Under the pieces are notes generated by a model. The model did no database searches. It was not told where the DNA came from and saw nothing but the letters and a program-made list of their open reading frames with translations. Below are positions 23,175-54,172 of a stretch of 64,000 nucleotides of DNA, in pieces. The position numbers and the translations under genes were made by a program. The stretch comes from Bacillus sp. CH30_1T (GTDB taxonomy: Bacteria > Bacillota > Bacilli > Bacillales > Bacillaceae_B): assembly GCF_008364765.1 (NCBI RefSeq), contig NZ_VTUY01000004.1, positions 690,596-754,595 of the forward strand, given 5' to 3'. Numbering within the stretch: the first letter of the stretch is position 1; every line of letters starts with the position of its first letter.

Positions 23175-23967
<793 letters not shown>

Positions 23968-23994
23968 AAAACGAATATTGATTTGATATTGGAT

Positions 23995-31950: not shown

Positions 31951-31963
31951 CAGGTAAGGATAC

Positions 31964-32066
31964 CTTATCTTCCAAAATGACTTCACATTTTGCTGGAATT
32001 AGCACCTTACATACGTAGGTTGCTGGGCTTCGCGGGGCCAGATCCCTCCACCACTCTGGATAAGAG
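31964..32066 (-). ncRNA. SAM-I riboswitch (S-box) of the cysH operon
   Basis: On the minus strand CTCTTATCCAGAG opens the element, then GGTGGAGGGATCTGGCCC, GAAGCCCAGCAACC, GGTGCTAATTCC and finally GATAAG, which closes P1 with CTTATC. All core S-box blocks are conserved. SAM binding should favour the terminator at 31919-31950 and turn the sulfate operon off, consistent with the S-box known for cysH in B. subtilis. Confidence 0.97.
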
Positions 32067-32230: not shown

Positions 32231-32632
32231 TCAAAATAGTTGAAACATCAATTTACCCTCGATCACTTTCTTCTGGTCCTGATTGACGGCAAAGACTTTA
32301 AAATGTAAGAGATCATCCTGTTTTTCTGATACTTCTGCAAACATTGTAATGACATCGTCCAAAAAAACCATCCCTTTAAAGCGAACGGTGTAATCTTTGA
32401 TAAATCCTTCTTCATAATGATCACTAAAAAGCTTGGAGACATTGCCCATTGTCCACATGCCATGAGCAATGATTCCTGGAAGCCCCAGTTTATGGGCTTC
32501 CTCATCGATCGTATGAATGGGGTTATAATCCCCAGATGCTCCTGCATATTTGATTAAGTCGATTCTCGAGACTGGAGCTAATTCGACAATGGGAATCGTT
32601 TCACCTATATTAATGGATGATAGTATAGTCAT
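32231..32632 (-). CDS. MaoC-like dehydratase, C-terminal half type
   Basis: 133-residue hot-dog protein of the MaoC/R-specific enoyl-CoA hydratase group. The hydratase motif is seen as YAGASGDYNPIHTIDEEA (Asp and His for water addition), followed by GIIAHGMWTMG. With the preceding gene it probably makes a two-part hydratase acting on (R)-3-hydroxyacyl-CoA or a related thioester. Its ATG overlaps the stop of that gene by 4 bp (ATGA), so the two are made together. Last gene of the unit that starts at the 35.1-kb operator. Confidence 0.88.
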   Translation of the reverse strand: MTILSSINIGETIPIVELAPVSRIDLIKYAGASGDYNPIHTIDEEAHKLGLPGIIAHGMWTMGNVSKLFSDHYEEGFIKDYTVRFKGMVFLDDVITMFAEVSEKQDDLLHFKVFAVNQDQKKVIEGKLMFQLF

Positions 32633-33078
32633 TTTCCCAACCTCTCTCTGACCGCTTCAGTGATAATGACAATCGCCTCGGAGGTGAAAATCCTTTTCCC
32701 TCCTGAGTCTTCACCTATATCTTCGATTACAAGAAAGCCTAGTGTTCCACCCGATCCTTTCCGCTCATAGTAATCTTTTATCTCTGTATAACACTGAATA
32801 CGTTCCCCAACCTTCAGTGGTCTTACATAGTGAAAAGATTGTTCCCCATGAATTAACCCGATATTCGGTAGATGAAAACCCTCAATTGTTCCATAGTCAA
32901 ATACTCTGGGAAACGTGGGGGGAGCGATATTCCCCCTGTATTTAGATCGCTTTCCTGCTTCTTCATCCACATAAATGGGATGTAGATCTCCGATGGCTTC
33001 GGCAAACTTATGAACCGCTCCTTTTTCTACACAATTTTCTACGGAAGTTGAGCGTTTACCGATATAAGATTGAAACAT
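32629..33078 (-). CDS. MaoC-like dehydratase, FAS1/N-terminal-domain type
   Basis: 149-residue hot-dog protein of the MaoC_dehydrat_N class. It has the N-terminal VHKFAEAIGDLHPIYVDEEA block (degenerate hydratase motif) and GLIHGEQSFHYVRPLKVGE, but the catalytic set is less complete than in the neighbour, as is normal for the partner half. ATG 33078 is used because GAGGTG is correctly placed; a GTG three codons upstream lies within it. Heterodimer with the next gene is likely. Confidence 0.85.
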   Translation of the reverse strand: MFQSYIGKRSTSVENCVEKGAVHKFAEAIGDLHPIYVDEEAGKRSKYRGNIAPPTFPRVFDYGTIEGFHLPNIGLIHGEQSFHYVRPLKVGERIQCYTEIKDYYERKGSGGTLGFLVIEDIGEDSGGKRIFTSEAIVIITEAVRERLGK

Positions 33079-33099
33079 ATCCTTCACCTCTTTCTCCCA

Positions 33100-33858
33100 T
33101 TAGGCTTTCGGCCCTCCAGCTACGTAGAGGATTTGTCCATTAACGAATGACGATCTTTCATCCGCAAAAAACGCCACTGCATTCGCTATATCTTCCGGCT
33201 GCCCGCTTCTCCCGACAGGAATACCTTGAAGACTTGCTTCCACCAATTCTTCAAAGGTAATTCCGATTCGCATAGCTGTTTCTCTAGTCATATCCGTTTC
33301 GATGAATCCGGGGGCTACTGCATTGGTCGTAATACCAAGAGGACCAAGCTCTATAGCCAAAGTTTTCGTTAAGCCTTGAAGACCCGCTTTAGCCGTAGCG
33401 TAATTTGCCTGACCCCGGTTACCGAGTGCCGAGGTAGAAGAGATATTAATCATCCGGCCATACCTATTCTTCACCATATAACCTTGCGCTGCTTTCGCTA
33501 CGTTAAATGCTCCTTTCAAATGCACATCCATGACCGTTTGCCAATCTGTATCAGTCATTTTAAACAACAGGTTATCTCTGATGACTCCTGCATTGTTGAC
33601 AACAATGTCAACGGACCCGAAAGTTTCAAAGACTTCGTTGACGGCCTCTTCTACTTCTTTGAATTCTACTACATTCGCAATTCTTGTATATATTTCATAC
33701 TCTCTCAATTCCTCACTGACTTCCAAGAGTGCCTCTTCATTCACGTCAATGATGGCAACCTTTGCCCCTTCTCCTGCAAAGAGCTTGGCAATCGCTTTAC
33801 CGATCCCCCGGCTCCCGCCTGTTACTAAAGCTACTTTCCCTCTGAATCTTTCACCCAT
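33100..33858 (-). CDS. Short-chain dehydrogenase, FabG/PhaB-like 3-oxoacyl reductase or 3-hydroxyacyl dehydrogenase
   Basis: Classical SDR of 252 residues. TGGSRGIGKAIA is the cofactor glycine motif; NNAG and the Ser-Tyr-Lys triad (SSTSALGNRGQANYATAKAG) are intact. The C-terminal PEDIANAVAFFADERSSFVN block is FabG-like. In this unit with an acyl-CoA dehydrogenase and MaoC pair, it should oxidise or reduce the 3-hydroxy/3-oxoacyl-CoA pair. GGAGGTAA before ATG 33858. Confidence 0.88.
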   Translation of the reverse strand: MGERFRGKVALVTGGSRGIGKAIAKLFAGEGAKVAIIDVNEEALLEVSEELREYEIYTRIANVVEFKEVEEAVNEVFETFGSVDIVVNNAGVIRDNLLFKMTDTDWQTVMDVHLKGAFNVAKAAQGYMVKNRYGRMINISSTSALGNRGQANYATAKAGLQGLTKTLAIELGPLGITTNAVAPGFIETDMTRETAMRIGITFEELVEASLQGIPVGRSGQPEDIANAVAFFADERSSFVNGQILYVAGGPKA

Positions 33859-33879
33859 TTACATTACCTCCTTATCCCT

Positions 33880-35055
33880 TTAAACAAATTGGCCCACTTT
33901 CACATGCCCTTTTAATAGATTCCGAGAAATGATCAGTTTTTGAATTTCATCAGTACCATCATAAATACGCCACAATCTTGCTTCACGATACCAGCGTTCA
34001 ATCGGAAGTTCTCTTGTGTAGCCCATCCCTCCGTGAATTTGAAGGACCCGATCCGCTACCCGATTTCCCATGTTCGATCCGTACAGTTTGGCAATCGATG
34101 CAACATGGCGATTATCTTCTCCTTGATCCAGCGTGAATGCTGCATTTAACACAAGCCATCTGGCAGCTTCAATTTCCACGGCAGAATCAGCAATCTGCCA
34201 TTGAATCGCCTGTCGATCCGCGATTGGCTTTCCAAATGTCTCTCTTTCCTTGGAATAATCAATCGCCATTTGCAGTAAACGTTCTGCTGCGCCTACCGCT
34301 TGTGCACCAACAATCCAGCGTGCGAACCCGATCCATTCCAGTCCCAAATTGTAACCACCATCGATTTCACCGAGAATATTTTCTTCAGGTACCCGCACGT
34401 CATCAAAAAACAGACTGGCCGGTCCCCATTCCCCCATGGTATGAATGTATTCGGATGTCCAACCCATACTTCGATCGGCTATAAAACAGGTTACTCCTTC
34501 CCGACCCGTTCTCCGATGCTTTTCCTTATCGGTCACCGCCATGACCATGACAAAGTCTGCTTCATTTCCGCCAGTAATAAACGTTTTTTCACCATTTAAT
34601 ACCCACTCATTTCCATCCTTCACTGCGGTCATCCGAATGTTTTGAGTATCGGATCCAGCTCCCGGTTCCGTCATGGCAAAGCAGGACTTTTTCTCTCCGT
34701 TTATCGTGGGGATCAAATAGTTCTTTTTCTGTTCTTCGTTGGCATAGTATAGGATGTTATCTGCATAACCACCGAAACTGAAAGGCACAAAGGTTTTAGA
34801 GATTTCCATATAAACAATGGCCATCATCATTTGCCCGAGATCCGCTCCGCCGTACTCTTCTGGTGTATTGATCCCCCAGAACCCTGCTTCCTTTGCTTTT
34901 AACTGCAGCTCGCTCCTTTTTTCCGGGGAAAGACTTGGTTTTCCTTCCCGTTCATTTCTTAGCACTTCATTTTCTAAAGGTATTAGTTCTTTCTCAACAA
35001 ATTTACGGATGGTTTTTTGGATCATCCTTTGTTCATCTGATAACCGTAAGTTCAT
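33880..35055 (-). CDS. Acyl-CoA dehydrogenase
   Basis: FAD-dependent alpha,beta-dehydrogenation of acyl-CoA; 391 residues with the usual three ACAD domains. Recognisable are CFAMTEPGAGSDTQNIRM (FAD contact), NGEKTFITGG, GGMGYTRELPIERWYREARL and the C-terminal IYDGTDEIQ. In medium-chain enzymes the catalytic base is Glu in YEGTSxIQ; here that place is Asp (YDGTD), which may indicate another substrate class. First gene of a unit behind the palindrome at 35084-35101. GGGGGG precedes ATG 35055. Confidence 0.9.
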   Translation of the reverse strand: MNLRLSDEQRMIQKTIRKFVEKELIPLENEVLRNEREGKPSLSPEKRSELQLKAKEAGFWGINTPEEYGGADLGQMMMAIVYMEISKTFVPFSFGGYADNILYYANEEQKKNYLIPTINGEKKSCFAMTEPGAGSDTQNIRMTAVKDGNEWVLNGEKTFITGGNEADFVMVMAVTDKEKHRRTGREGVTCFIADRSMGWTSEYIHTMGEWGPASLFFDDVRVPEENILGEIDGGYNLGLEWIGFARWIVGAQAVGAAERLLQMAIDYSKERETFGKPIADRQAIQWQIADSAVEIEAARWLVLNAAFTLDQGEDNRHVASIAKLYGSNMGNRVADRVLQIHGGMGYTRELPIERWYREARLWRIYDGTDEIQKLIISRNLLKGHVKVGQFV

Positions 35056-35083
35056 CCCGGTTCCCCCCTATAAGATGGATCGT

Positions 35084-35101
35084 ATACTAACTGGTTAGTA
35101 T
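35084..35101. promoter_or_regulatory. TetR-type operator 1
   Basis: ATACTAACTGGTTAGTAT, an almost perfect 18-bp inverted repeat, 28 bp upstream of the acyl-CoA dehydrogenase start; its last base is the first base of the preceding gene's stop codon. Shares the ATACTAAC-CA-GTTGGTAT pattern with the sites at 38419 and 43603. Confidence 0.8.
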
Positions 35102-36075
35102 TATGGCTGCAGGATTACCTTTCCTACCGTTTTTCTTGCTTGCATGAGTGTATGAACCTTAGCTGCATCTTCTAAAGGAAATACATGTCCAACCGTTACT
35201 TTCAATTCCCCGGACGCTACATAATGAAAGATTTCATGAAGGGTTTTCTGGGTCAGTTCAGCATCTCTCATGAGAGGAGGTAGGAAGAACCCGATAACAG
35301 ACTGATTCTTTGCCATCAAAGAAGAAGGATAAAATCTGCTCTGCTCTCCGCTTGCTACTCCGTAAATCACCATTCTTCCGAAATAGTCAAGACATTTTAA
35401 CGTTTTATAGAAAACATCACCGCCTGCCATTTCCAATGCCAGGTTTACACCCTTTCCATTTGTGGCTTCCAGAACTTCTGATTCCCAGCCCTCTTGAGTG
35501 TAGTTGACTAACACATTCGCTCCCATACCCTCAGCCAGACGTAATTTTTCTTCTGTGCTGGCCGTAGCGATGATCTTACCTGCACCAAATCGTTTTGCCA
35601 GTTGGACGGCAAGCAGGCCTACTCCACCAGCCGCTGCATGAATGAGGACGGTTTCTCCCTGCTGCAACCTTCCCAAGGTTTTTAATATGTGATAGGCACT
35701 TAATCCTTGAACAGGGATGGCGGCCGCTTCTTTGAAATCCAATCCATATGGGAGGGGGATCAATGAACGCTCATCTGTCAGGGCAAATTCTGCATAGCCT
35801 CCGGAATCCAACATGGCTACAACCCGGTCTCCTTTTCTTACTCTCTTCACATCTTCTCCCACTTCAGTGACGATTCCCGCCACTTCAGAACCCGGGATAT
35901 ATGGGAGTGGAGTTTTCACCACATATTGCCCTTCCCGTCTTGCTGTATCAGCATAATTGACTGCAGATGCATGAACATCAATAAGGACTTCTCTCCCCCG
36001 AGGCGTCGGAACATTTATATCCACATTTTCTAATACATTAGGGCTTCCAAACTCCCTGAACTGAATGGCTTTCAT
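35101..36075 (-). CDS. Zinc-independent medium-chain dehydrogenase/reductase (quinone oxidoreductase/enoyl reductase type)
   Basis: NADPH-dependent MDR protein of 324 residues. The N-terminal catalytic GroES-like fold has VHASAVNYADTARREGQY and GSEVAGIVTEVGEDVKRV; the Rossmann part has HAAAGGVGLLAVQLAKRFGA (AAGGVG dinucleotide motif). No cysteine ligands for catalytic or structural zinc. Possible reaction: reduction of an enoyl-CoA or an alpha,beta-unsaturated ketone. It is the last gene of the unit starting at 38.4 kb, 11 bp after the enoyl-CoA hydratase. Confidence 0.87.
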   Translation of the reverse strand: MKAIQFREFGSPNVLENVDINVPTPRGREVLIDVHASAVNYADTARREGQYVVKTPLPYIPGSEVAGIVTEVGEDVKRVRKGDRVVAMLDSGGYAEFALTDERSLIPLPYGLDFKEAAAIPVQGLSAYHILKTLGRLQQGETVLIHAAAGGVGLLAVQLAKRFGAGKIIATASTEEKLRLAEGMGANVLVNYTQEGWESEVLEATNGKGVNLALEMAGGDVFYKTLKCLDYFGRMVIYGVASGEQSRFYPSSLMAKNQSVIGFFLPPLMRDAELTQKTLHEIFHYVASGELKVTVGHVFPLEDAAKVHTLMQARKTVGKVILQP

Positions 36076-36086
36076 CCTAATCCCTC

Positions 36087-36863
36087 CTATTTTCCAGAAA
36101 ACGATGGTCTTCTTTTGTTTTTAAATGCTGAAACTCCCTCACCATGATCTTCAGTTGTAATCATCAAGGTTTGTGTGATTCGTTCTTGTTCAAGTATCTC
36201 ATCCAAAGATGAGGTGAATGAACGATCAATCATTTTCTTCATCATTCCATAAGCTTTACTTGGCCCTAAGGCTAACTCTCTAGCCCAATCAGTTGTTTCC
36301 TTATCAAGTCTTTCAAAAGGGACAATACGGTTTACCACACCTAAGTTATACATTCTTCCGGCAGCCACAGGTTCTCCTGAAAAGAAGAATTCTTTCGCTA
36401 AATGTGGGCCTATGATGCGTGGAAGAAAATACGAACCTCCGCCATCGGAAATAAGACCTACTTTAGAGAAGCTTAAAGCGAATTGACTATCTTCTGAAGC
36501 GATAATCAAATCACTGGCCAGGGCTAAATTAAAACCGGCACCTGCTGCAAAGCCGTGTACCGAGGCGATGACCGGTTTATCTATTTCTTTTATTGCTTTA
36601 ATGCATGTATTTAATATCCCGATGTGTTCATAGACTTCGGTTGAAGTGGCACTCCCCATCGTTTTCACGTCGCCGCCTGCAGAAAAGGCCCTCCCGGCAC
36701 CGCGAATCACAATGGCTCTGATTTCCTGATTATGCTCTGCCTGCTCTAGTGCTTCAACGATTCCCGTAAGCATGTTCTCATCAAAGGAATTCAAGCTATC
36801 CGGTCTATTTAATGTCAATGTCAGTACCCGGTCAGTTGTTTCTAGTAGTAAAGAGGATTTCAT
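36087..36863 (-). CDS. Enoyl-CoA hydratase/isomerase (crotonase family)
   Basis: Crotonase-fold protein, 258 residues. The CoA-binding/oxyanion-hole segment is GAGRAFSAGGDVKTMGS and a second one ASVHGFAAGAGFNLALA. The catalytic region reads FSKVGLISDGGGSYFLPRI: the second acidic residue is Asp where hydratases have Glu, and the first catalytic Glu is not in its usual place, similar to PaaG/ECI-like isomerases. A double-bond isomerase may therefore be more likely than a hydratase. Located between the APH kinase and the MDR gene. Confidence 0.85.
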   Translation of the reverse strand: MKSSLLLETTDRVLTLTLNRPDSLNSFDENMLTGIVEALEQAEHNQEIRAIVIRGAGRAFSAGGDVKTMGSATSTEVYEHIGILNTCIKAIKEIDKPVIASVHGFAAGAGFNLALASDLIIASEDSQFALSFSKVGLISDGGGSYFLPRIIGPHLAKEFFFSGEPVAAGRMYNLGVVNRIVPFERLDKETTDWARELALGPSKAYGMMKKMIDRSFTSSLDEILEQERITQTLMITTEDHGEGVSAFKNKRRPSFSGK

Positions 36864-36886
36864 CGTTTTCGTTCATCTCCTTGTCT

Positions 36887-37963
36887 TTATTCCTGGCGAT
36901 CAAATGCAGCTTGACTTCCCAGGGTGATCAACGATTTCGCAAACCGATCAAATTGAGAAAATCGTGAATCGCTGGTTTGCCCCATCTTAAAGCGGTAATA
37001 GATTTGTTGCACAATGACTGCGAGCTTAAAATAAGCAAAAGATAAATAAAAATGAATATTGTTCACGTCTCTACTGCTTTTCCTGGCATATTCTTCGATA
37101 AATTGTCTTCTGCTGTAAAAACCGTCCATGATCGTTACTGGAGGCTTCCCAAGACCAAATTTTAATAACTCTGGATCATCATTTTGTATCCAATACCCCA
37201 TAGCGACACCTAAATCAGCAAGAGGATCACCAACGGTCGCCATCTCCCAGTCAAATAACCCCACCATAGATTTAAGGTCAGAAGAAAACATGGAATTGTT
37301 TAATTTAAAATCATAATGAATGATTGTCGATTCAGCATTTCCTGGAACATTCTTTATCAACCAGTGTGTCAGGTGATCCACTTCGCGAATCTCACTTGTT
37401 TTGGCACGCTCGTAACGTTTGATCCATCCATATACTTGTCTTTCCATAAAGTGTTCGGGCTTACTGATTTCATGAAGAGTTGTTTTTCTGTGATCAATGG
37501 AATGAAGATCGACCAGTTTAGAAACCATTTCCTCCGATATTTTCCTGCAGATATCTGGTGTCACATGGAGGTGAGGGGGAAAGGAAGTATCAAATACTTC
37601 ACCTTTTATTCGCTCCATGATGAAAAATGGGCTGCCTACGATCCTTTCATCATCAGAGAATACATACGGCTCAGGTGTAACACAGAATAATGGTTGAATT
37701 TCTGAAAGAATCCTATATTCTCTTTTCATATCGTGAGCCTTCGGGGCGACAGGTCCTAATGGAGGACGTCTCAGTACACCTTCCCATTCACCCATTTTAA
37801 GTAGATACGTAAGATTTGAGTGTCCTGCAGAAAATTGTTTAATAGAGAGCTCTTCATGAAGGAGGTGAGGGAAATGCTCATTCAAAAAGCTTTTTAGATT
37901 GGTAGTATTCAGCTCTTCTCCTTCTCGCACCGATACCGTTTCATACCCAGTTTTTTCAGACAT
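36887..37963 (-). CDS. APH-family kinase, ACAD10/11-N-terminal or LvaA type (hydroxyacyl-CoA kinase candidate)
   Basis: Phosphotransferase of 358 residues with an aminoglycoside-phosphotransferase fold. Ligand-binding SAGHSNLTYLL (46-56) and LRRPPLGPVAPKAHDMKREY (64-83) are characteristic of the ACAD10/11 kinase domain rather than antibiotic kinases. The catalytic loop is HYDFKLNN (216-223; Asp218, Asn223) and the metal site DWE (238-240), so it should be active. In Pseudomonas, LvaA of this family phosphorylates 4-hydroxyacyl-CoA (levulinate pathway) and the phosphate is then eliminated by a dehydrogenase-fold partner. Here the partner may be the ACAD at 41.5-42.7 kb. Second gene after the operator at 38.4 kb. 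Confidence 0.9.
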   Translation of the reverse strand: MSEKTGYETVSVREGEELNTTNLKSFLNEHFPHLLHEELSIKQFSAGHSNLTYLLKMGEWEGVLRRPPLGPVAPKAHDMKREYRILSEIQPLFCVTPEPYVFSDDERIVGSPFFIMERIKGEVFDTSFPPHLHVTPDICRKISEEMVSKLVDLHSIDHRKTTLHEISKPEHFMERQVYGWIKRYERAKTSEIREVDHLTHWLIKNVPGNAESTIIHYDFKLNNSMFSSDLKSMVGLFDWEMATVGDPLADLGVAMGYWIQNDDPELLKFGLGKPPVTIMDGFYSRRQFIEEYARKSSRDVNNIHFYLSFAYFKLAVIVQQIYYRFKMGQTSDSRFSQFDRFAKSLITLGSQAAFDRQE

Positions 37964-37978
37964 CTTACCCCTCCAACA

Positions 37979-38395
37979 TTAAGAATATTCAGTTTTCTCT
38001 GAGCGCAAATGAGTGTTTAACTGCGCCTTTAACAACTCAGGGATCATTTTGCTTTGCTGCTCAAGAAAATCAAAATAAACGATCACCGCATTTCCCTTTG
38101 CAATCAATTGATGGGTGTTCGCACATAAGATATCATGCTCTAACTGAAAGCTCTTCGATCCAATTTTTGATAGATAGGTGGTGATCTTTAACTCTTGATT
38201 AAAATACCCTTGTGACACAAAGTCACATTTGGTTGAAGCGAGAATAAATCGCCAGTCTTTCACCTCCATATCAAATCCGAGTGATTGAAAGAATTTAATT
38301 CTTGCTTCTTCTAAATAAACAAAATAAGTTGTATTGTTGATATGACCTAATGCATCCGTTTCGCAAAATCTACTCGTTACCGTAATGGTTTCCAT
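37979..38395 (-). CDS. Acyl-CoA thioesterase, 4HBT family
   Basis: 138-residue hot-dog thioesterase. The active-site loop is CETDALGHINNTTYFVYLEE (Asp in D-x-x-G-H-x-N-N), of the 4-hydroxybenzoyl-CoA thioesterase/YbgC type. It probably releases free acid from an acyl-CoA and recycles CoA. First gene of the unit; the TetR-type operator is 23 bp upstream. Confidence 0.87.
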   Translation of the reverse strand: METITVTSRFCETDALGHINNTTYFVYLEEARIKFFQSLGFDMEVKDWRFILASTKCDFVSQGYFNQELKITTYLSKIGSKSFQLEHDILCANTHQLIAKGNAVIVYFDFLEQQSKMIPELLKAQLNTHLRSEKTEYS

Positions 38396-38418
38396 TAGCC
38401 CGCCATCTCCCTATATAA

Positions 38419-38436
38419 ATACTAACCAGTTGGTAT
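38419..38436. promoter_or_regulatory. TetR-type operator 2
   Basis: ATACTAACCAGTTGGTAT lies between the end of the tetR gene and the thioesterase start. 18-bp inverted repeat with one mismatched pair, the same pattern as operators 1 and 3. Confidence 0.8.
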
Positions 38437-38472
38437 GTTATTCATAAGGAAATCCTTTAGATGATTTCCCAT

Positions 38473-39039
38473 TTACTCTGTCTCAATCCCTTTTAATACC
38501 ATATCGACAAAAGTCTGGGCAATTTCCTGATCGGATTTCGCACCATCAGGCTTATACCATTGATAGCTCCAATTCATCATACCGAGAATTCCAAAAGCTA
38601 CAATCGATACGTCAAAGTCCTCATGAAAGTCTCCGTTCTTCCTACCTTCTTTCAGGAGAGTTTCTATATTATAGCGATACATATCCCGCTTAGGCTCAAT
38701 TGCATCCAGACTTTCCTTGCTCAAGTGCCTCATTTCTCTAAAAAATACTTTGGCACTGGCCCCTTGCTCTTTAATGTCCAGAATGGAAAGATGGACAATA
38801 TCATAAAGTTTTTCCATGTAGCTCTTCCGATCATCTCCAAGAACTCTTTCCTGTTTAGATAATAAGCCATCAATATAGCGCATGTGAATTTCCTTTAACA
38901 GCTCTTCCTTACTGGAGAAATAGTAATAGAATGTTCCTTTTGTTACACCAATGGATTCTACTATGTCCTGAATGGAAGTAACGGTAAATCCTTTTTCATC
39001 AAATAAGCGTACAGCATGTTCTGTAAGTTTTTCTTTCAT
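38473..39039 (-). CDS. TetR-family repressor of the acyl-CoA locus
   Basis: 188-residue TetR protein. The DNA-binding domain (about 5-50) has FDEKGFTVTSIQDIVESIG and VTKGTFYYYFSSKEELLKE. The C-terminal domain is helical and similar in size to FadR (YsiA)-type acyl-CoA-binding repressors. ATG 39039 is preferred over an upstream TTG, as AGAGGA is correctly spaced. It is the last gene of the unit starting at 43.6 kb and stands right before operator 2, so it probably controls all three units and itself. The inducer is likely an acyl-CoA of the pathway (inference). Confidence 0.88.
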   Translation of the reverse strand: MKEKLTEHAVRLFDEKGFTVTSIQDIVESIGVTKGTFYYYFSSKEELLKEIHMRYIDGLLSKQERVLGDDRKSYMEKLYDIVHLSILDIKEQGASAKVFFREMRHLSKESLDAIEPKRDMYRYNIETLLKEGRKNGDFHEDFDVSIVAFGILGMMNWSYQWYKPDGAKSDQEIAQTFVDMVLKGIETE

Positions 39040-39083
39040 CTGAAATCCTCTCAATCTGCAAATATCACCTAAATTATATCATA

Positions 39084-40688
39084 TTACCTCACGTTTTCAC
39101 GCAGGGCTCTTCGTAATATTTTCCCAACACTCGTCTTTGGAAGCTCCCCACGAAACTCAATGATTTTTGGAACCTTAAATGATGACATGTTCTCCTCACA
39201 GAAATGAACCAATTCTTTTTCAGTTGCCTGTTCCCCTGACTTTAAGACGATCACTGCCTTAACCGTTTCGCCTCTATAAGAGTCCGGGACACCGATTACG
39301 ACAGCTTCCTGTACGCTTGGATGCTCGTAAATGATTTCCTCGACTTCCCGGGGATACACATTGTATCCTGATGCAATGATCAGATCTTTCTTTCGGTCCA
39401 CAATCGATATATACCCTTCTTCATCCATTCGGGCGATGTCTCCTGTGTAAAGCCAACCATCTCGAAGGGCGTGAGCAGTCTCTTCAGGTAAATTCCAGTA
39501 GCCTTTCATTACTTGAGGGCCTTTAATAATGAGTTCGCCCACATCTCCTAAAGGAACCTCCGTAGTGCCTGTTGCTAAATCAACTACCTTATAGTCTGTG
39601 GATGGAAATCCAATTCCAACCGTTCCCGGCTTTCTTTCTGCAAAAGCGGGGTTGCAATGAGTCGTTGGTGAAGCCTCTGATAATCCGTATCCCTCTAATA
39701 TTTTCGCTCCTGTTTTCTTTTCGAATTGATTCAATAACTCAACTGGCATCGGGGCGCTACCGCTATTACAAATTTTTATTGAATCAATGCCGTACTCTTC
39801 TGCCTGTGGATGATTGGTGATCGCCACGTACATAGTCGGCACACCTGGAAACAGGGTGGGCTGTTCGTTCTTAATGGTGGTTAGCACTTCTGACAATTCA
39901 AACCTTGGAAGTAAGATCATTTCATTTGCTGAATAAACCGCAAAGTTCATACATGAATTCATCCCAAATACATGAAAGAACGGAATCACACTCAGGCTTC
40001 TTTCTTTCCCTGTTTCAATGCTGTCTTTAAAGAAGAGTTGACTTTGAATGACATTTGAAAGGATGTTTTTATGAGTGAGCATGACTCCCTTGGATGCACC
40101 GGTAGTTCCACCAGTATATTGAAGGACTGCCACATCTTCTTCAGGGTTGATCGACACCTGGGATACTTCACCATCCCCTACCATCAAAAATTCATCAAAG
40201 TCATAGTCTGGTGGGACAAGTTGGTATTCTCCCTCAAAGCTTACTACAATAATCCTCTTGACTTTTGTCTCCTTTTGAATGGAATGGACCATTGGATAAA
40301 AACGGTCCAATACGACGATTGTCTCAGCTCCCGAGTCATTGAGCAGATGGATTAATTCCCTTTCAACTGACATCGGATTCACCTGTGTGACAATTCCCCC
40401 GGAGGTAAGGATTCCATAATAAGAGATCACATATTGCGGACAGTTCGGGAGCATGATCGCCACCCTGTCTCCTTTCTTCACTCCAATATGTTGAAAGGAT
40501 GAAGCAAGCATGGAGACGGCACCTTGAAGTTCACCATACGTTATCCGTTTTTGATAAAAGCTAATACATGGATGAGCCGGGAATGAAGAAACGGTATGTC
40601 GAAGCATTTCTGGTATTGAAAAATCAACCTCAGGAATTTCAGTCTCATACGCTTCAGGGTAATGACTGAGCCAAGATTTAGTTGTCAT
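39084..40688 (-). CDS. Long-chain fatty acid-CoA ligase
   Basis: AMP-forming acyl-CoA ligase of 534 residues. Phosphate-binding motif LQYTGGTTGASKGVMLTHKN near residue 190, the A5 region GYGLSEASPTTHCNP, WLYTGDIARMDEEGYISI, and the C-terminal Lys in PKTSVGKILRR. Activates the acid that enters the pathway. 44 bp before tetR in the same unit. Confidence 0.92.
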   Translation of the reverse strand: MTTKSWLSHYPEAYETEIPEVDFSIPEMLRHTVSSFPAHPCISFYQKRITYGELQGAVSMLASSFQHIGVKKGDRVAIMLPNCPQYVISYYGILTSGGIVTQVNPMSVERELIHLLNDSGAETIVVLDRFYPMVHSIQKETKVKRIIVVSFEGEYQLVPPDYDFDEFLMVGDGEVSQVSINPEEDVAVLQYTGGTTGASKGVMLTHKNILSNVIQSQLFFKDSIETGKERSLSVIPFFHVFGMNSCMNFAVYSANEMILLPRFELSEVLTTIKNEQPTLFPGVPTMYVAITNHPQAEEYGIDSIKICNSGSAPMPVELLNQFEKKTGAKILEGYGLSEASPTTHCNPAFAERKPGTVGIGFPSTDYKVVDLATGTTEVPLGDVGELIIKGPQVMKGYWNLPEETAHALRDGWLYTGDIARMDEEGYISIVDRKKDLIIASGYNVYPREVEEIIYEHPSVQEAVVIGVPDSYRGETVKAVIVLKSGEQATEKELVHFCEENMSSFKVPKIIEFRGELPKTSVGKILRRALRENVR

Positions 40689-40739
40689 AAAATCATTCCT
40701 TCCATTTCAGATTTCTCATATACTAATTCTGCATGTACC

Positions 40740-41495
40740 TTAAAAGATTAATCCTCCACCATCAACAGATAGTGTGGCACCGGTTATAAAGGACGCCTCA
40801 TCAGAAGCTAAAAACAGAATCGCTGATGCGACTTCTTCTGGATTTCCAATCCGTCTTAGAGCATTTGATTGAGAGATCGCCGACCATTTCCTCTCATCCT
40901 TCTTCCAACCATTGATGATGTTCGTATCTATAACCCCAGGCGCTACTGCATTCACTCGAATATTATCCTTTCCATATTCCAGGGCAGCATTTTGTGTCAG
41001 TAGTATGACACCACCTTTTGCCGAATTGTAGGCTGACACGTATTTGCGGCCCTTTAAACCGAGAAGGCTCGATACATTCACAATTACACCATCTTTTTTC
41101 ATCAATTCAGGTATGGCATACTTCATTCCCAGAAAAATGCTCTTTAAGTTTGTATCCAATACGGCATCCCATTCGTTTTCGTCCAGATCAATACTCCTGA
41201 CTTCCGACTGTCCGATTCCTGCATTATTGATAAGGATATCGAAACCTCCGAAATGTTCCACCGTAGTATGTACGAGGGATTGAATGCTTTCACTTTCCCG
41301 CACGTTCGTTTTGATAAAAAGTGCAATTCCTTTTTTTTCGTGAATGAGTCTGACCGTTTCTTCACCTCTTGCATCATCCAAATCTGCTACGACCACAGCA
41401 GCACCTTCTTTCGAGAACCTTAGTGCTGTAGCGCGCCCAATTCCTCCGCCTCCCCCTGTAATAACGGAAACTTTCCCTTGTAATCTCATCAGCAT
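40740..41495 (-). CDS. Short-chain dehydrogenase (SDR)
   Basis: 251-residue classical SDR with TGGGGGIGRATAL cofactor motif, NNAGIG and SSLLGLKGRKYVSAYNSAKG (Ser, Tyr, Lys). Asp in VVADLDDARG at the end of beta-2 suggests NAD(H). The start may be ATG 41495 or ATG 41489; the ribosome site is weak. It lies 12 bp downstream of the ACAD10/11-like dehydrogenase. Substrate presumably a hydroxyacyl-CoA. Confidence 0.86.
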   Translation of the reverse strand: MLMRLQGKVSVITGGGGGIGRATALRFSKEGAAVVVADLDDARGEETVRLIHEKKGIALFIKTNVRESESIQSLVHTTVEHFGGFDILINNAGIGQSEVRSIDLDENEWDAVLDTNLKSIFLGMKYAIPELMKKDGVIVNVSSLLGLKGRKYVSAYNSAKGGVILLTQNAALEYGKDNIRVNAVAPGVIDTNIINGWKKDERKWSAISQSNALRRIGNPEEVASAILFLASDEASFITGATLSVDGGGLIF

Positions 41496-41507
41496 CCAAC
41501 TCTCTTC

Positions 41508-42737
41508 CTAGCCTTCTACAGGAGAAGCTTTTTCGTGTTTTCTCAATTCTAATTTTGCCAATTGGGCACGGTGTACTTCATCAGGTCCATCAGCAAGTCG
41601 CAGTGTACGGGCATTTGCCCATTGAGCTGCCATCGTGTAGTCATCCGATACTCCTGCTGCCCCGAAAGCTTGAATGGCCCGGTCGATCACACGTAAAGCC
41701 ATTGAAGGAGCCACCACTTTAATCATGGCGATTTCCTGTTTCGCTGCTTTATTGCCGACGGTATCCATCATGTAGGCTGCTTTCATCGTAAGAAGACGGG
41801 CTTGTTCGATTTCAATCCTTGAATTCGCAATCCATTCTCTTACGACCCCCTGACTTGCCAATGCCATTCCGAATGCATCACGTCCCTGAACACGCTTACA
41901 TAATTCTTCAAGTGCCCGCTCTGCTGCACCGATCAATCTCATGCAATGATGAATTCGCCCAGGTCCCAACCTTCCTTGAGCAATAGCGAAACCTTTTCCT
42001 TCACCCCAAATCATATTTTCTAAAGGAACTCTTACATCGGTAAAGGTGATTTCTCCATGACCATGAGGGGCATGATCGTAACCGAACACAGGAAGCATGC
42101 GCTCAATTTTCACACCTGGTGTATTCAGCGGGATGATAATCATTGATTGCTGTTCATGACGACTCGCCTTGGGATCTGTTTTCCCCATTAGTATGGAAAA
42201 GGTGCATCGAGGGTCACCGGCGCCTGATGACCACCATTTCTTCGCGTTAATGATGTATTCGTCTCCATCCCGGATGATACTCGCCTTAATATTCGTTGCA
42301 TCGGAAGACGCGACATCAGGCTCGGTCATAGAGAAACATGAACGGATATCACCATTTAGCAGAGGGATAAGATACTGTTGTTTTTGAGTAGGAGTCCCAT
42401 AACGTTCCAACACTTCCATATTCCCTGTATCAGGAGCATTGCAATTAAACACTTCCGGACCGATCAGGGATCTCCCCATGATTTCACAAAGAGGGGCGTA
42501 TTCGACATTATTAAGCCCGGCACCATATTCGCTTTGAGGAAGAAATAGGTTCCATAATCCCTGTTTCCTCGCTTCAGCTTTTAGTTCTTCCATGATTGTG
42601 GGAACCCCGCTCCAGCGGGTTTCTTGCTGATTGAGCTGATTTTCATAGAGAGATTCATTCGGGTACACGTATTCTTCCATAAAACGGGATATTCTATTTT
42701 GATATTCTTGTACTTTTGGAGAATAGGAGAAATCCAT
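41508..42737 (-). CDS. Acyl-CoA dehydrogenase, ACAD10/11-like
   Basis: 409-residue ACAD from ATG 42737 (AAAGGATGG gives correct spacing; the ATG at 42746 is too near). Characteristic of the ACAD10/11 subgroup are [47 protein letters not shown] and the C-terminal [19 protein letters not shown], with Asp replacing the usual catalytic Glu. In animals this domain is fused to an APH kinase; in LvaA/LvaC it is separate. Here the kinase gene is 3.5 kb downstream under the same operator type. It probably acts on phosphorylated 4-hydroxyacyl-CoA, giving enoyl-CoA. Confidence 0.9.
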
Positions 42738-42783
42738 TACATCCATCCTTTCTTAACCAAAACATGTAATACTCCGCACTCGG

Positions 42784-43557
42784 TTACATCGCTGAGGATC
42801 CACCGTCTACGACGAGAACTGAACCAGTGACAAAATCAGATGCACGAGCCGCCAGGAAAAGTGCCGCTCCTTTAAGATCATTCTCGGTACCGAATCGATT
42901 TAATGGTGTTCCGTTTAAAATGGCTTCCCCTGCATGAGATAGAATTCCTTTTGACATTTTTGTTGGAAAGAATCCCGGTGCGATTGCATTCACATGAATC
43001 CCGCGGGAACCCCATTTCACGGCTAGATCCTTCGTGAAATTGATGACCGCTGCTTTACTCGTGCTATAGCCAATGGCATCCATATAACGTGGGTCTGTAC
43101 CTTGAAGACCTGCTACTGAAGCAATATTAATGATTTTACCTTGCTGTTGCTCGAGCATTAATTTCCCCACGGCCTGTGACATAATAAAAGTCCCATTTAC
43201 ATTCACATTGATAACTTTATGCCAAGCGTCAAGAGGCATTTCTTCTGCAGGTGCCCCCCAGGAAGCACCACTGTTATTCACTAAAATATCAATGCGGCCA
43301 AACACCTTCTTCGATTCATCTACAACACGCTGTACGTCTTCAGGATTAGTGACATCACACTTCAATGCCAGTGATTGGACACCTATTTCTTCTAATTCCT
43401 TCTTCACGTCTTCACATGCTTCAACGTTTCTCGAGCATACTACAACGTTTGCCCCCGCTTCAGCAAACCCTGTCGCGATTTGTTTCCCCAACCCTCTGCC
43501 TCCTCCGGTCACAAGGGCAACTTTACCTGATAAATCAAATAATTCATTCACATGCAC
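42784..43557 (-). CDS. Short-chain dehydrogenase (SDR)
   Basis: 257-residue classical SDR, GTG start with GGAGG 7 bases upstream. TGGGRGLGKQIA cofactor site; VVVCSRNVEACED after beta-2 with Arg points to NADP(H). Catalytic SVAGLQGTDPRYMDAIGYST then SKAAV (Ser, Tyr, Lys). Similar to gluconate 5-dehydrogenase/FabG-like proteins found in acyl-CoA clusters. First gene of the unit, directly behind operator 3. Confidence 0.86.
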   Translation of the reverse strand: MHVNELFDLSGKVALVTGGGRGLGKQIATGFAEAGANVVVCSRNVEACEDVKKELEEIGVQSLALKCDVTNPEDVQRVVDESKKVFGRIDILVNNSGASWGAPAEEMPLDAWHKVINVNVNGTFIMSQAVGKLMLEQQQGKIINIASVAGLQGTDPRYMDAIGYSTSKAAVINFTKDLAVKWGSRGIHVNAIAPGFFPTKMSKGILSHAGEAILNGTPLNRFGTENDLKGAALFLAARASDFVTGSVLVVDGGSSAM

Positions 43558-43602: not shown

Positions 43603-43620
43603 ATACTAACCAGTCGGTAT
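43603..43620. promoter_or_regulatory. TetR-type operator 3
   Basis: ATACTAACCAGTCGGTAT, 45 bp upstream of the first gene of the SDR-ACAD-SDR-ligase-tetR unit. Differs from operator 2 at a single base. Confidence 0.8.
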
Positions 43621-43701: not shown

Positions 43702-43730
43702 AAAAACTGACTCATATATGTATGAGCCAG
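43702..43730 (-). terminator. Terminator of tcyP
   Basis: CTGGCTCATA and TATGAGTCAG (minus strand) form a 10-bp stem with one G-T pair and 4-base loop, followed by TTTTTC. Confidence 0.9.
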
Positions 43731-43739
43731 CCCACTTGT

Positions 43740-45125
43740 TTAAGCTTCTGCTTCAATGATTTCTTTGTTATACGCTTCGTTATCCAAATCACCTGTCACT
43801 TTACTTGTTATGATTCCAGATGTCATTGCACCACTCACATTTACTGCTGTTCGCCCCATGTCAATCAAAGGTTCAACAGAAATCAATAGACCCGCTAACG
43901 CTACTGGAAGATCCAAGGCGGATAGAACAAGGATAGCAGCAAATGTAGCTCCGCCTCCAACGCCAGCAACACCGAAGGAGCTAATGGCCACCACTACGAT
44001 GAGCGTAAGAATAAAGGAAGGGGTTAATGGATTAATCCCGACAGTCGGTGCAATCATCACTGCAAGCATGGCAGGATACACACCTGCACAACCGTTCTGA
44101 CCGATGGATAACCCGAATGATCCCGAGAAGTTGGCAACCCCTTCTGAAACACCCAATTTATGCTTTTGTGTTTGAATGTTAAGTGGCAGTGTTCCGGCAC
44201 TGGATCTCGACGTAAAAGCAAATGCTAATACAGGAAATACTTTTTTCATGTAAGTGACCGGATTTAAGCCCGCAAGAGTAAGCATGATTAAGTGAATGGC
44301 AAACATGATAATCAAGGCCACATAAGATGCTCCAACAAATTCTCCAAGCTTCATGATGGCATCAAAATTACTTAATGCAACCGTTTTAGCCATGATGGCC
44401 AACACACCGAATGGAGTGAGTCGTAACACCAAAGTCACAATTCTCATGACTACAGCATAGACAGAATCAACGATTTTCTTGAAGAATTCAGCAGCCTCAG
44501 GCTCTTTGCGCTGAGCCCCCAAGTAAGCGATACCGATGAAAGCTGCGAAAATCACGACAGCGATCGTCGAGGTTGCTCTTTGTCCCGTAAAGTCCAGGAA
44601 CGGATTCGCAGGTAAAAGCTCGAGAATTTTTTGAGGATAACTCTGACCTTCTAAAGATGTCGCTCTCTCCTCTAATTGAACTCCCCTTGCCGTTTCTGCC
44701 TCTCCTTGATCAATCTGGATCGCTTCCAAATCAAAAGCCACGGTCGTAGCAATCCCGACAGCTGCAGCAACGGCTGTTGTGCCTACCAGCAATCCAATGA
44801 TCAGCACAGAGATCTTCCCTAAATTATGAGACCGTTTTAATTTAGAGAAGGCTGAAATAATCGACACAAATACTAAAGGCATGACAATCATTTGCAGAAG
44901 TTTAATATAGCCGGATCCGACGATGTTAAACCATTCAATCGATTGTGTGACATTTTCATCCCCGGCTTCATATACCCACTGTAATCCAAGACCAAATAAT
45001 ATCCCCAGCCCCAGAGCGGTAAACACCCGTTTTGAAAATGAAACATTTTTCCTTTGCATATAAAGTAATACACCGATGAGAACAAGAAACACCAAAATGT
45101 TTAACAAAACAAACCAGACATTCAT
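43740..45125 (-). CDS. tcyP: Sodium-dicarboxylate-type symporter, L-cystine transporter TcyP
   Basis: Membrane transporter of 461 residues (B. subtilis TcyP 463), SDF/DAACS family. N-terminal helices, then LLQMIVMPLVFVSIISAF; the TSRSSAGTLPLNIQ loop (serine-rich re-entrant hairpin) and GGGATFAAILVLSALDLPV with MGRTAVNVSGAM (substrate/sodium site) are conserved. TcyP takes up cystine, so this gene complements the sulfate operon as a sulfur source. Single gene, own terminator, with a perfect palindrome upstream (45164-45177). A dicarboxylate or glutamate substrate is less likely given its length and similarity. Confidence 0.9.
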   Translation of the reverse strand: MNVWFVLLNILVFLVLIGVLLYMQRKNVSFSKRVFTALGLGILFGLGLQWVYEAGDENVTQSIEWFNIVGSGYIKLLQMIVMPLVFVSIISAFSKLKRSHNLGKISVLIIGLLVGTTAVAAAVGIATTVAFDLEAIQIDQGEAETARGVQLEERATSLEGQSYPQKILELLPANPFLDFTGQRATSTIAVVIFAAFIGIAYLGAQRKEPEAAEFFKKIVDSVYAVVMRIVTLVLRLTPFGVLAIMAKTVALSNFDAIMKLGEFVGASYVALIIMFAIHLIMLTLAGLNPVTYMKKVFPVLAFAFTSRSSAGTLPLNIQTQKHKLGVSEGVANFSGSFGLSIGQNGCAGVYPAMLAVMIAPTVGINPLTPSFILTLIVVVAISSFGVAGVGGGATFAAILVLSALDLPVALAGLLISVEPLIDMGRTAVNVSGAMTSGIITSKVTGDLDNEAYNKEIIEAEA

Positions 45126-54007: not shown

Positions 54008-54051
54008 TGAGATCAGTTTGATAGAATTCGATTCTATGTGACCGTCAAACA

Positions 54052-54142
54052 CCACTTCCCTACGCTGGTCTCAACCAGATCAGGTTCAAAGGGTCTTAAA
54101 GTCACACTTTAATCTCAGCCTTTTATAAGGCACCCCTAGTGG
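54052..54142 (-). ncRNA. TPP riboswitch (THI box)
   Basis: Minus strand shows P1 CCACT with AGTGG, AGGGGTGCC, GGCTGAGA, then ACCCTTTGAACCTGATCTGG and GAGACCAGCGTAGGGAAG, which are the conserved THI-box blocks. TPP binding should stop expression of the eleven-gene thiamin operon. Confidence 0.98.
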
Positions 54143-54172
54143 ATCGTCCTATGAAATTTTGTATTCGATGTT

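Follow-up and report, generated by a model that had tools for sequence, protein, structure and literature searches.

Background

Mammalian ACAD10 and ACAD11 combine a kinase and an acyl-CoA dehydrogenase (ACAD) in one fused protein, and their reaction was assigned in 2024 and 2025 for mammals and a few proteobacterial proteins (PMC12440821, PMC11342911). In this chemistry the kinase phosphorylates the hydroxyl of a 4-hydroxyacyl-CoA and the dehydrogenase acts on the resulting 4-phosphoacyl-CoA to give 2-enoyl-CoA. The lva operon of Pseudomonas putida has separate genes for a kinase, an ACAD, an acyl-CoA ligase and a short-chain dehydrogenase (SDR), the last of which, LvaD, reduces levulinyl-CoA (PMC6692424). 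A third system of relevance, the PfmR operon of Thermus thermophilus HB8, has a published role in phenylacetate and fatty acid metabolism (PMC7022988). Here we analyze a 64,000-nucleotide stretch of the 4.9-Mb genome of Bacillus sp. CH30_1T (hereafter the window), in which a kinase and an ACAD10/11-like dehydrogenase are encoded by intact, separate open reading frames within a 13-gene cluster on the minus strand (32231-43557). From 43557 onwards the order is SDR1, the ACAD10/11-like dehydrogenase, SDR2, an acyl-CoA ligase, a TetR-family protein, a thioesterase, the kinase, an enoyl-CoA hydratase/isomerase (ECH), a quinone-oxidoreductase-like protein (QOR), a second acyl-CoA dehydrogenase (ACAD2), a FabG-like protein, a FAS1_DH_region hydratase subunit (FAS1DH) and a MaoC subunit. 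No intergenic gap exceeds 77 bases, and one pair of genes overlaps by 4.

An earlier reading of this DNA (the original prediction) had put the locus forward as a candidate route for lactones, levulinate or 4-hydroxy fatty acids, and the dehydrogenase match, the active-site residues and the pairing of the two genes reported below support it. We consider it probable that the cluster is a catabolic unit that channels 4-hydroxy acids into beta-oxidation; these would most likely stem from gamma-lactones, or else be formed from levulinate or other 4-oxo acids. The kinase and the dehydrogenase would most likely convert 4-hydroxyacyl-CoA via 4-phosphoacyl-CoA into 2-enoyl-CoA, which is a known chemistry in a new genomic and regulatory setting.

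The dehydrogenase and its kinase partner

In the comparison with ACAD11 that the original prediction had suggested, the dehydrogenase (41508-42746, minus strand) proved closer to ACAD11 than to any other ACAD in the PDB. Among solved structures it lies nearest to ACAD11 and to a bacterial homologue (4hr3, 2wbi, 8v3u and 8v3v, E-values 8e-137 to 1.4e-139, with 3e-139 for human ACAD11, 2wbi), scoring 460-468 bits for ACAD11 and 469 bits for 4hr3, which is uncharacterised, versus 135 bits for the next ACAD, a gap of about 330 bits. Residues of mouse ACAD11 (PMC12440821) were mapped through the printed alignment, with the chain numbering taken as that of the paper minus 1 from the D220A chain. By this mapping mouse R626, R631, H634-C-M-R637 and D753 align with R259, R264, H267-C-M-R270 and D386 of the window protein. 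R626, H634, R637 and D753 are residues shown to matter in the mouse enzyme, the Arg/His/Arg set binding the 4-phosphate and D753 being catalytic (PMC12440821). Each of these four positions is conserved in 80 of 81 rows comprising the window protein and its counterparts in 80 related loci, the remaining row being gapped there. Further, in an alignment of 15 ACADs the R/H/R set is present in the 13 of the ACAD10/11 type and absent from two controls, namely ACAD2 of the same cluster and TTHB022 of T. thermophilus. Both signature segments, of 11 and 10 residues, that the original prediction had recognized are present, as is the Asp that it had noted in place of the usual catalytic Glu. However, this Asp is not by itself diagnostic, because ACAD2 (33880-35055), whose three signature positions are occupied by W, V and Q, also carries Asp at the base position; it was thus rejected as the sole ACAD10/11 signature, and it is the R259/H267/R270 set that separates the two enzymes. 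By its closeness to ACAD11 and its predicted phosphate-binding R/H/R set and catalytic Asp, the dehydrogenase is, as judged from its sequence, of the ACAD10/11-LvaC type.

The closest named matches of the dehydrogenase gene come from two strains of Rossellomorea aquimaris (97 and 98% identity), by which the source would be a Rossellomorea-like member of the Bacillaceae. Its reading frame had previously been given as 41508-42737; the frame itself stands, with its longest form beginning at 42746 and the earlier start being the next in-frame Met, three residues on, which may be the real one as many homologues align only from residue 4. A divergent subtype of the ACAD/kinase pair (ACAD identity 39-43%) is seen in four loci of more distant Bacillota (L133, L135, L136 and L138), with HAMR replacing HCMR in all three of these that were checked for residues (L133, L135 and L138).

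The kinase (36887-37963, minus strand) spans 358 residues and has, as originally predicted, an HxDxxxxN loop of the form H216-Y-D218-F-K-L-N-N223 and the ACAD10/11-like segment LRRPPLGPVAPKAHDMKREY. It has a single Pfam match, APH (E 3.9e-38), and no family at 1e-10 in an NCBIfam scan. A profile search favours ACAD11, whose kinase domain matches at 2e-44, and the closest solved kinase by sequence is 9o56 (1e-144, about 60% identity by eye), for which a literature search by its code found no paper. Mouse R176, D220 and N225 align with R175, D218 and N223 of the window kinase and are conserved in 72 of 72 kinase rows; in the mouse enzyme D220 and N225 are the catalytic Asp and Asn and R176 contacts CoA (PMC12440821). 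The same paper names a CoA-contacting R86 beside the alpha-C Glu. In the chain numbering, Phe occupies native position 86; the Arg that flanks the alpha-C Glu corresponds to R81 of the window kinase, which is invariant in a 30-row kinase alignment. A tree recovered a supported clade of 15 rows (99/98), comprising 14 ACAD-partnered kinases and 9o56. A support of only 38/73 attaches to the split between the partnered kinases and seven further APH proteins of the genome, which this tree does not firmly separate. The gene is predicted to encode a 4-hydroxyacyl-CoA kinase with the role of LvaA or of the ACAD10/11 kinase domain.

In comparison with mammalian ACAD10 and ACAD11, the window retains the kinase and ACAD pair with the catalytic Asp, the equivalents of R626, H634 and R637, and those of kinase D220, N225 and R176. 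In contrast to the mammalian proteins, its pair is encoded by two separate genes with no HAD domain, has a kinase of a different clade, and sits in an operon with a ligase, SDRs and beta-oxidation genes. The likeness to the lva operon, drawn from the roles described for it, is that a single operon holds the kinase, the ACAD, the SDR and the ligase as genes of their own; unlike it, the window has a PfmR-type TetR gene as the only regulator of the cluster, together with an extra ACAD, a MaoC pair, FabG, QOR and a thioesterase.

Co-occurrence of the pair and a recurrent third enzyme

The two genes travel together to a striking degree. Among 61 genomes (our own and 60 relatives; cut-offs E 1e-40 for the kinase and E 1e-90 for the ACAD) the kinase was found in 35 and the ACAD in 34, with both in 34 and the ACAD alone in none; the sole genome scored as having only the kinase, G044, has a signature-bearing ACAD of 39% identity adjoining it. 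In a phylum-wide sample of 299 genomes, including our own, the kinase was found in six and the ACAD in the identical six, three of which belong to one genus. As the genomes are related these counts are not independent, and we attach no probabilities to them. Gene counts were also made in 80 related loci, with identity lines of 42-60%, set by us gene by gene, and bounded by 10-kb flanks and contig ends; here the kinase is present in 71. In plasmid records the two genes are near one another in loci of Deinococcus, Azospirillum, Streptomyces, Sphingobium, Pseudoalteromonas and Rhodococcus, and Cupriavidus pHG1 has the ACAD with no kinase in a 13-kb stretch. The 690-kb plasmid of Cytobacillus spongiae (L132) carries a shorter cluster, SDR1-ACAD-TetR-thioesterase-kinase-FabG-MaoC pair, flanked by thiamine/cystine-transporter and sulfate-assimilation genes that are apparently the window's own flanks, as if a chromosomal block were on the replicon.

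After the kinase the most frequent partner is SDR1 (42784-43557, minus strand), which NCBIfam NF006070 (394.8 bits against a cut-off of 279) places in the PRK08213 ('gluconate 5-dehydrogenase') subfamily and which is present in 66 of the 80 loci. At an identity of at least 62%, a line set after the score gap had been seen, it occurs in 32 of the 34 ACAD-bearing genomes and in none of the 27 others, seven of which have only a weaker paralogue of 55-60%; the ACAD-bearing genomes without it at this line are G037 and G059. In G041 the ACAD and the kinase lie 2 Mb apart and each has its own SDR1 copy within 1.4 kb. By analogy with LvaD, we propose that SDR1 is a 4-oxo/4-hydroxyacyl-CoA oxidoreductase.

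A shared palindrome

An 18-bp palindrome, ATACYRACNNGTYRGTAT, precedes SDR1 and has three perfect copies in the genome, all within the cluster. The first (43603-43620) lies upstream of the SDR1-ACAD-SDR2-ligase-TetR unit, the second (38419-38436) upstream of thioesterase-kinase-ECH-QOR, and the third (35084-35101) upstream of ACAD2-FabG-FAS1DH-MaoC. The pattern was written from the window's own first site before counting, and the first site is therefore no independent test, which is provided by the other two sites and by the relatives. The genome has no copy with one mismatch and five with two mismatches outside the cluster. In 82 related loci there are 122 sites at up to two mismatches as against 3 in one local shuffle, and at the same tolerance 71 of the 80 loci have a site 9-109 bp ahead of where their first gene is matched. 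Across the 61 genomes a perfect copy occurs in 27 of the 34 that bear the ACAD and in two of the 27 others, and a reversed control pattern in none of the 61. These observations define a conserved operator-like palindrome, to which we infer that the TetR protein of the cluster binds as a repressor.

By coordinates, 42 of the 50 perfect sites in these genomes are within about 10 kb of the ACAD, the kinase or SDR1, and all eight of the others were inspected. In G047 the site stands before an ACAD2-FabG-FAS1DH-MaoC unit whose products are 84, 72, 64 and 63% identical to those of the window, on a contig other than that of the ACAD and kinase. That of G059 coincides with the beginning of a 3-hydroxyacyl-CoA dehydrogenase gene, within its reading frame as initially called, in a ligase-TetR-ECH-SDR-ECH-QOR cluster. 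One G041 site is about 20 bp before a phosphotriesterase-family gene, and that of G052 is 10 bp before a gene resembling 2-phosphosulpholactate phosphatases, which is followed by an ECH 60% identical to that of the window and has an exporter gene opposite. From the genes that they precede, these four of the eight off-cluster sites touch the proposed pathway. The remaining four comprise a second G041 site at a carboxyltransferase with a ligase-like gene, one at a molybdopterin oxidoreductase (G039), one inside a 1430-residue frame (G008), and one in G050 (locus L156), a genome without the kinase or the ACAD at the cut-offs used, where it lies between a TetR-thioesterase pair and a metallo-beta-lactamase-fold gene.

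The combination of a 2-phosphosulpholactate-phosphatase-family gene followed by ECH recurs (L154, 4247-5008, minus strand; L057, 12982-13707, plus strand), being found beside the operator in G052 and inside the operon in Planococcus. Together with the histidine phosphatases encoded in the clusters of Azospirillum, Pseudoalteromonas and Thermus, the product of this phosphatase gene might clear stray phospho-intermediates.

Relationship to the PfmR operon of Thermus

The TetR-family protein, a putative repressor (38473-39054, minus strand; TetR_N and TetR_C_24 domains), has 3vpr as its best PDB match (6e-29, versus 3e-21 for KstR2), and 3vpr is in turn matched end to end by the PfmR protein encoded on pTT27 of T. 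thermophilus HB8 (407 bits). PfmR is thus the nearest characterised regulator, judged by these matches, and a corresponding site is present upstream of it. The operon is listed as TetR, ACAD, hypothetical, FabG, MaoC, hypothetical, ligase, gluconate 5-dehydrogenase, ACAD and phosphotransferase (PMC7022988, Table 5), and we assigned these entries by order to the record genes TTHB023-TTHB014. On pfmR deletion, the downstream genes with an adjusted p <0.05 were the signature-type ACAD and the phosphotransferase, with log fold changes of 1.68 and 1.86 (PMC7022988). The likeness to the window cluster extends to the TetR repressor (31% identity), an SDR1 homologue (TTHB016, 49%), an ACAD with the R/H/R/D signature (TTHB015, 35%), as well as FabG, MaoC, thioesterase, ligase and phosphotransferase genes, and an exact copy of the 14-bp operator core ACYRACNNGTYRGT just upstream of PfmR. 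In contrast, the full 18-bp pattern has three mismatches there, the phosphotransferase TTHB014 is just 23% identical to the window kinase over 201 residues and forms a long branch that is unplaced in the kinase tree, and an extra DUF6285 gene and a histidine phosphatase gene follow TTHB014. The core, read on one strand of the palindrome, has no exact match in seven distant loci (L125, L126, L133-L136 and L138). Taken together, the gene content and the operator core point to a probable role of the PfmR operon in the very reaction proposed for the pair in the window.

Other genes of the cluster and a proposed pathway

The original prediction had listed the two SDRs, the isomerase, the thioesterase, the ligase and the second ACAD correctly, and had left out the QOR, the FabG-like protein, the two MaoC-type hydratases and the TetR regulator. 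The remaining genes, all on the minus strand, are as follows. SDR2, a second short-chain dehydrogenase (40740-41495), is present in 17 of the 80 loci at an identity of at least 50%. The AMP-binding acyl-CoA ligase (39084-40688; Pfam AMP-binding, 8.7e-90) is found in 45 and the 4HBT-type thioesterase (37979-38395; Pfam 4HBT_2) in 48. ECH (36087-36863; ECH_1, 1e-58), with a crotonase fold, occurs in 35, and QOR, an MDR protein (35101-36075; TIGR02824, 282.2 bits, under the cut-off of 296.8), in 47. In the third unit ACAD2 is recognized by Pfam ACAD domains, the 3-oxoacyl reductase or 3-hydroxyacyl dehydrogenase (33100-33858) has SDR Pfam domains and is called FabG by resemblance, and the hydratase subunits FAS1DH (32629-33087; PF13452, 2.8e-33) and MaoC (32231-32632; PF01575, 1.5e-22) are encoded by the overlapping pair of genes. 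A 3-hydroxyacyl-CoA dehydrogenase gene is seen in many related operons (e.g. L100, 8245-9120; 47 loci matched over more than half the length, in addition to the query's own locus and one from the window's genome) and is absent from the window; the FabG and MaoC genes may cover its steps there.

We propose that the ligase would first form the CoA thioester of the incoming acid, and that SDR1 would interconvert 4-oxo- and 4-hydroxyacyl-CoA, by which 4-oxo acids, and perhaps the wrong stereoisomer, could enter. The APH-fold kinase would then phosphorylate the 4-hydroxyl, and the ACAD10/11-type enzyme would remove the phosphate to give 2-enoyl-CoA, its FAD shuttling the redox equivalents internally. 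This product could be hydrated by ECH or the MaoC pair and oxidised by FabG, with thiolysis taking place elsewhere. A pathway intermediate is the predicted inducer, which would release the PfmR-type repressor from the three operators.

A terminator-like hairpin (43704-43733, minus strand), with a 13-pair stem followed by a T run and recognized by a consensus scan only, lies between the cluster and the upstream gene at 43740-45125. A promoter scan gave 33 sites as against 28.1 expected, and hence we make no promoter claim. Directly downstream of the cluster is a SAM riboswitch (31962-32066, minus strand, 82 bits), followed by apparent sulfate-assimilation genes, as judged by the gene order of L132. 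Elsewhere the window has a TPP riboswitch (54040-54147, minus strand) and a purine riboswitch (23883-23984, minus strand).

Lactonases, substrate and alternative explanations

Opening of a gamma-lactone gives a 4-hydroxy acid, and that of a delta-lactone a 5-hydroxy acid. The phosphotriesterase-family gene under the operator in G041 has as its closest solved relatives the phosphotriesterase-like lactonases GkaP, GsP and Dr0930 (best E 1e-135), the latter two of which we take to be 3f4c and 3fdk. By raw count this lactonase family is represented in five of the 80 related loci, namely L057, L062, L075, L107, where the match is partial, and L100, where it closes the operon. In L075, from Planomicrobium, the operator is followed by ACAD, ligase, kinase, lactonase and then a cytochrome P450. 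With gamma-hexyl-gamma-butyrolactone as its substrate GkaP reaches 7.3e4 per M per s (PMC4338136), and the biological function of such lactonases was called still unknown in 2012 (PMC3468530). The presence of a lactonase in related clusters therefore suggests that the pathway naturally feeds on gamma-lactones or 4-hydroxy acids, and by our judgement these are clearly to be favoured over levulinate as the substrate, although both kinds may be used. Among the matches listed no paper links PfmR or phosphotriesterase-like lactonases to the ACAD10/11 reaction, which is a weak negative.

Several observations weigh against this assignment. The kinase is only distantly like that of ACAD11 (about 150 bits), the tree assigns it and the mouse kinase to separate clades that are divided by open branches, and its structure model was no closer to ACAD11 than to choline kinases in a fold search. 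ACAD11 ranked tenth in this search and seventh in a second one, and 9o56 was absent from the 50 matches listed by either. Nine of the 80 related loci have no kinase in the stretch covered, some of them ending at contig ends. At up to two mismatches the genome has 8 operator sites against 17 for the reversed control, and therefore only perfect sites count genome-wide; seven of the 34 ACAD-bearing genomes are without one, G041, G052 and G059 have perfect sites away from both the ACAD and the kinase, and some off-cluster sites precede genes without clear relevance. As to the lactonases, none of the phosphotriesterase-like family is encoded in the window, the kinase accompanies them only in L075 and L100, with none in the covered stretch of L057, L062 and L107, and GkaP itself prefers delta-decanolactone about 13-fold (9.9e5 per M per s; PMC4338136).

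The alternative that survives best, though we think it improbable, is that levulinate or another short 4-oxo acid is the true substrate, the cluster being a Bacillales counterpart of the Pseudomonas lva operon with SDR1 as an LvaD-like reductase. Its set of ligase, SDR, kinase and ACAD equals that of lva (PMC6692424), and the prevalence of SDR1 among the related loci and its tracking of the ACAD across genomes would accord with such a role. Yet the lactonase, P450 and full complement of beta-oxidation genes in some related operons suit longer lactones better, and among the 25 matches listed the ligase passes only the long-chain-fatty-acid ligase subfamily model NF004837 (481.8 versus 476). Further, there is no DUF6285 gene in the window's genome, a point that counts to the extent that LvaB belongs to this family, which is our unconfirmed guess.

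A second alternative holds that the kinase phosphorylates some other alcohol, for instance a terpenoid or steroid at a tertiary or side-chain hydroxyl, in the manner of the related 25-hydroxysteroid kinase, with the ACAD acting on the product. We regard this as quite unlikely, given that the ACAD11 kinase is far closer by sequence (2e-44) and that its constant partner, an ACAD, carries the 4-phosphate-holding residues of ACAD11. Slightly less likely still is a role in phenylacetate or general fatty-acid metabolism as assumed for the T. thermophilus operon. In its favour the discoverers of PfmR named the protein for this role (as related in PMC7022988), and the ECH gene scores 233 bits, under the cut-off of 300, against an oxepin-CoA hydrolase model. 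However, the PaaA/PaaC-family genes of the genome are outside the cluster on another contig (C1), and family scans found no ring oxygenase among the 13 genes. To our knowledge, neither role calls for a phosphotransferase or for an R/H/R-bearing ACAD. That the kinase, the ACAD and the rest are mere neighbours in an operon of unrelated lipid genes is very improbable: it is true that ACAD2, FabG and the two MaoC-type genes downstream turn up in no more than 10-11 of the 80 loci over the stretches covered, but against this stand the near-perfect co-occurrence of kinase and ACAD, the operators before three units, and the retention of the operator by the ACAD2 unit where it is unlinked.

Implications

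Returning to 4-hydroxy acids as the preferred substrates, we give about even chances to the wider proposal that the PfmR-type regulons of Bacillales and Thermus represent a dedicated catabolon for gamma-lactones and 4-hydroxy acids, in which a lactonase, ligase, SDR1, kinase and ACAD10/11-type enzyme would be joined under one TetR operator. The perfect operator is specific enough to find further members by sequence. Two new hypotheses follow, one on the job of the PfmR regulon, with a testable class of ligand, and the other on the natural use of some phosphotriesterase-like lactonases. If true, PfmR would be reassigned from phenylacetate to the sensing of an intermediate of 4-hydroxyacyl-CoA metabolism, and lactonases of the GkaP type would acquire a natural function, the breakdown of alkyl lactones. 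The cluster, which has a regulator of its own and a recurrent third enzyme and is joined by lactonases in relatives, offers a simple bacterial system in which the ACAD10/11 reaction can be tested.

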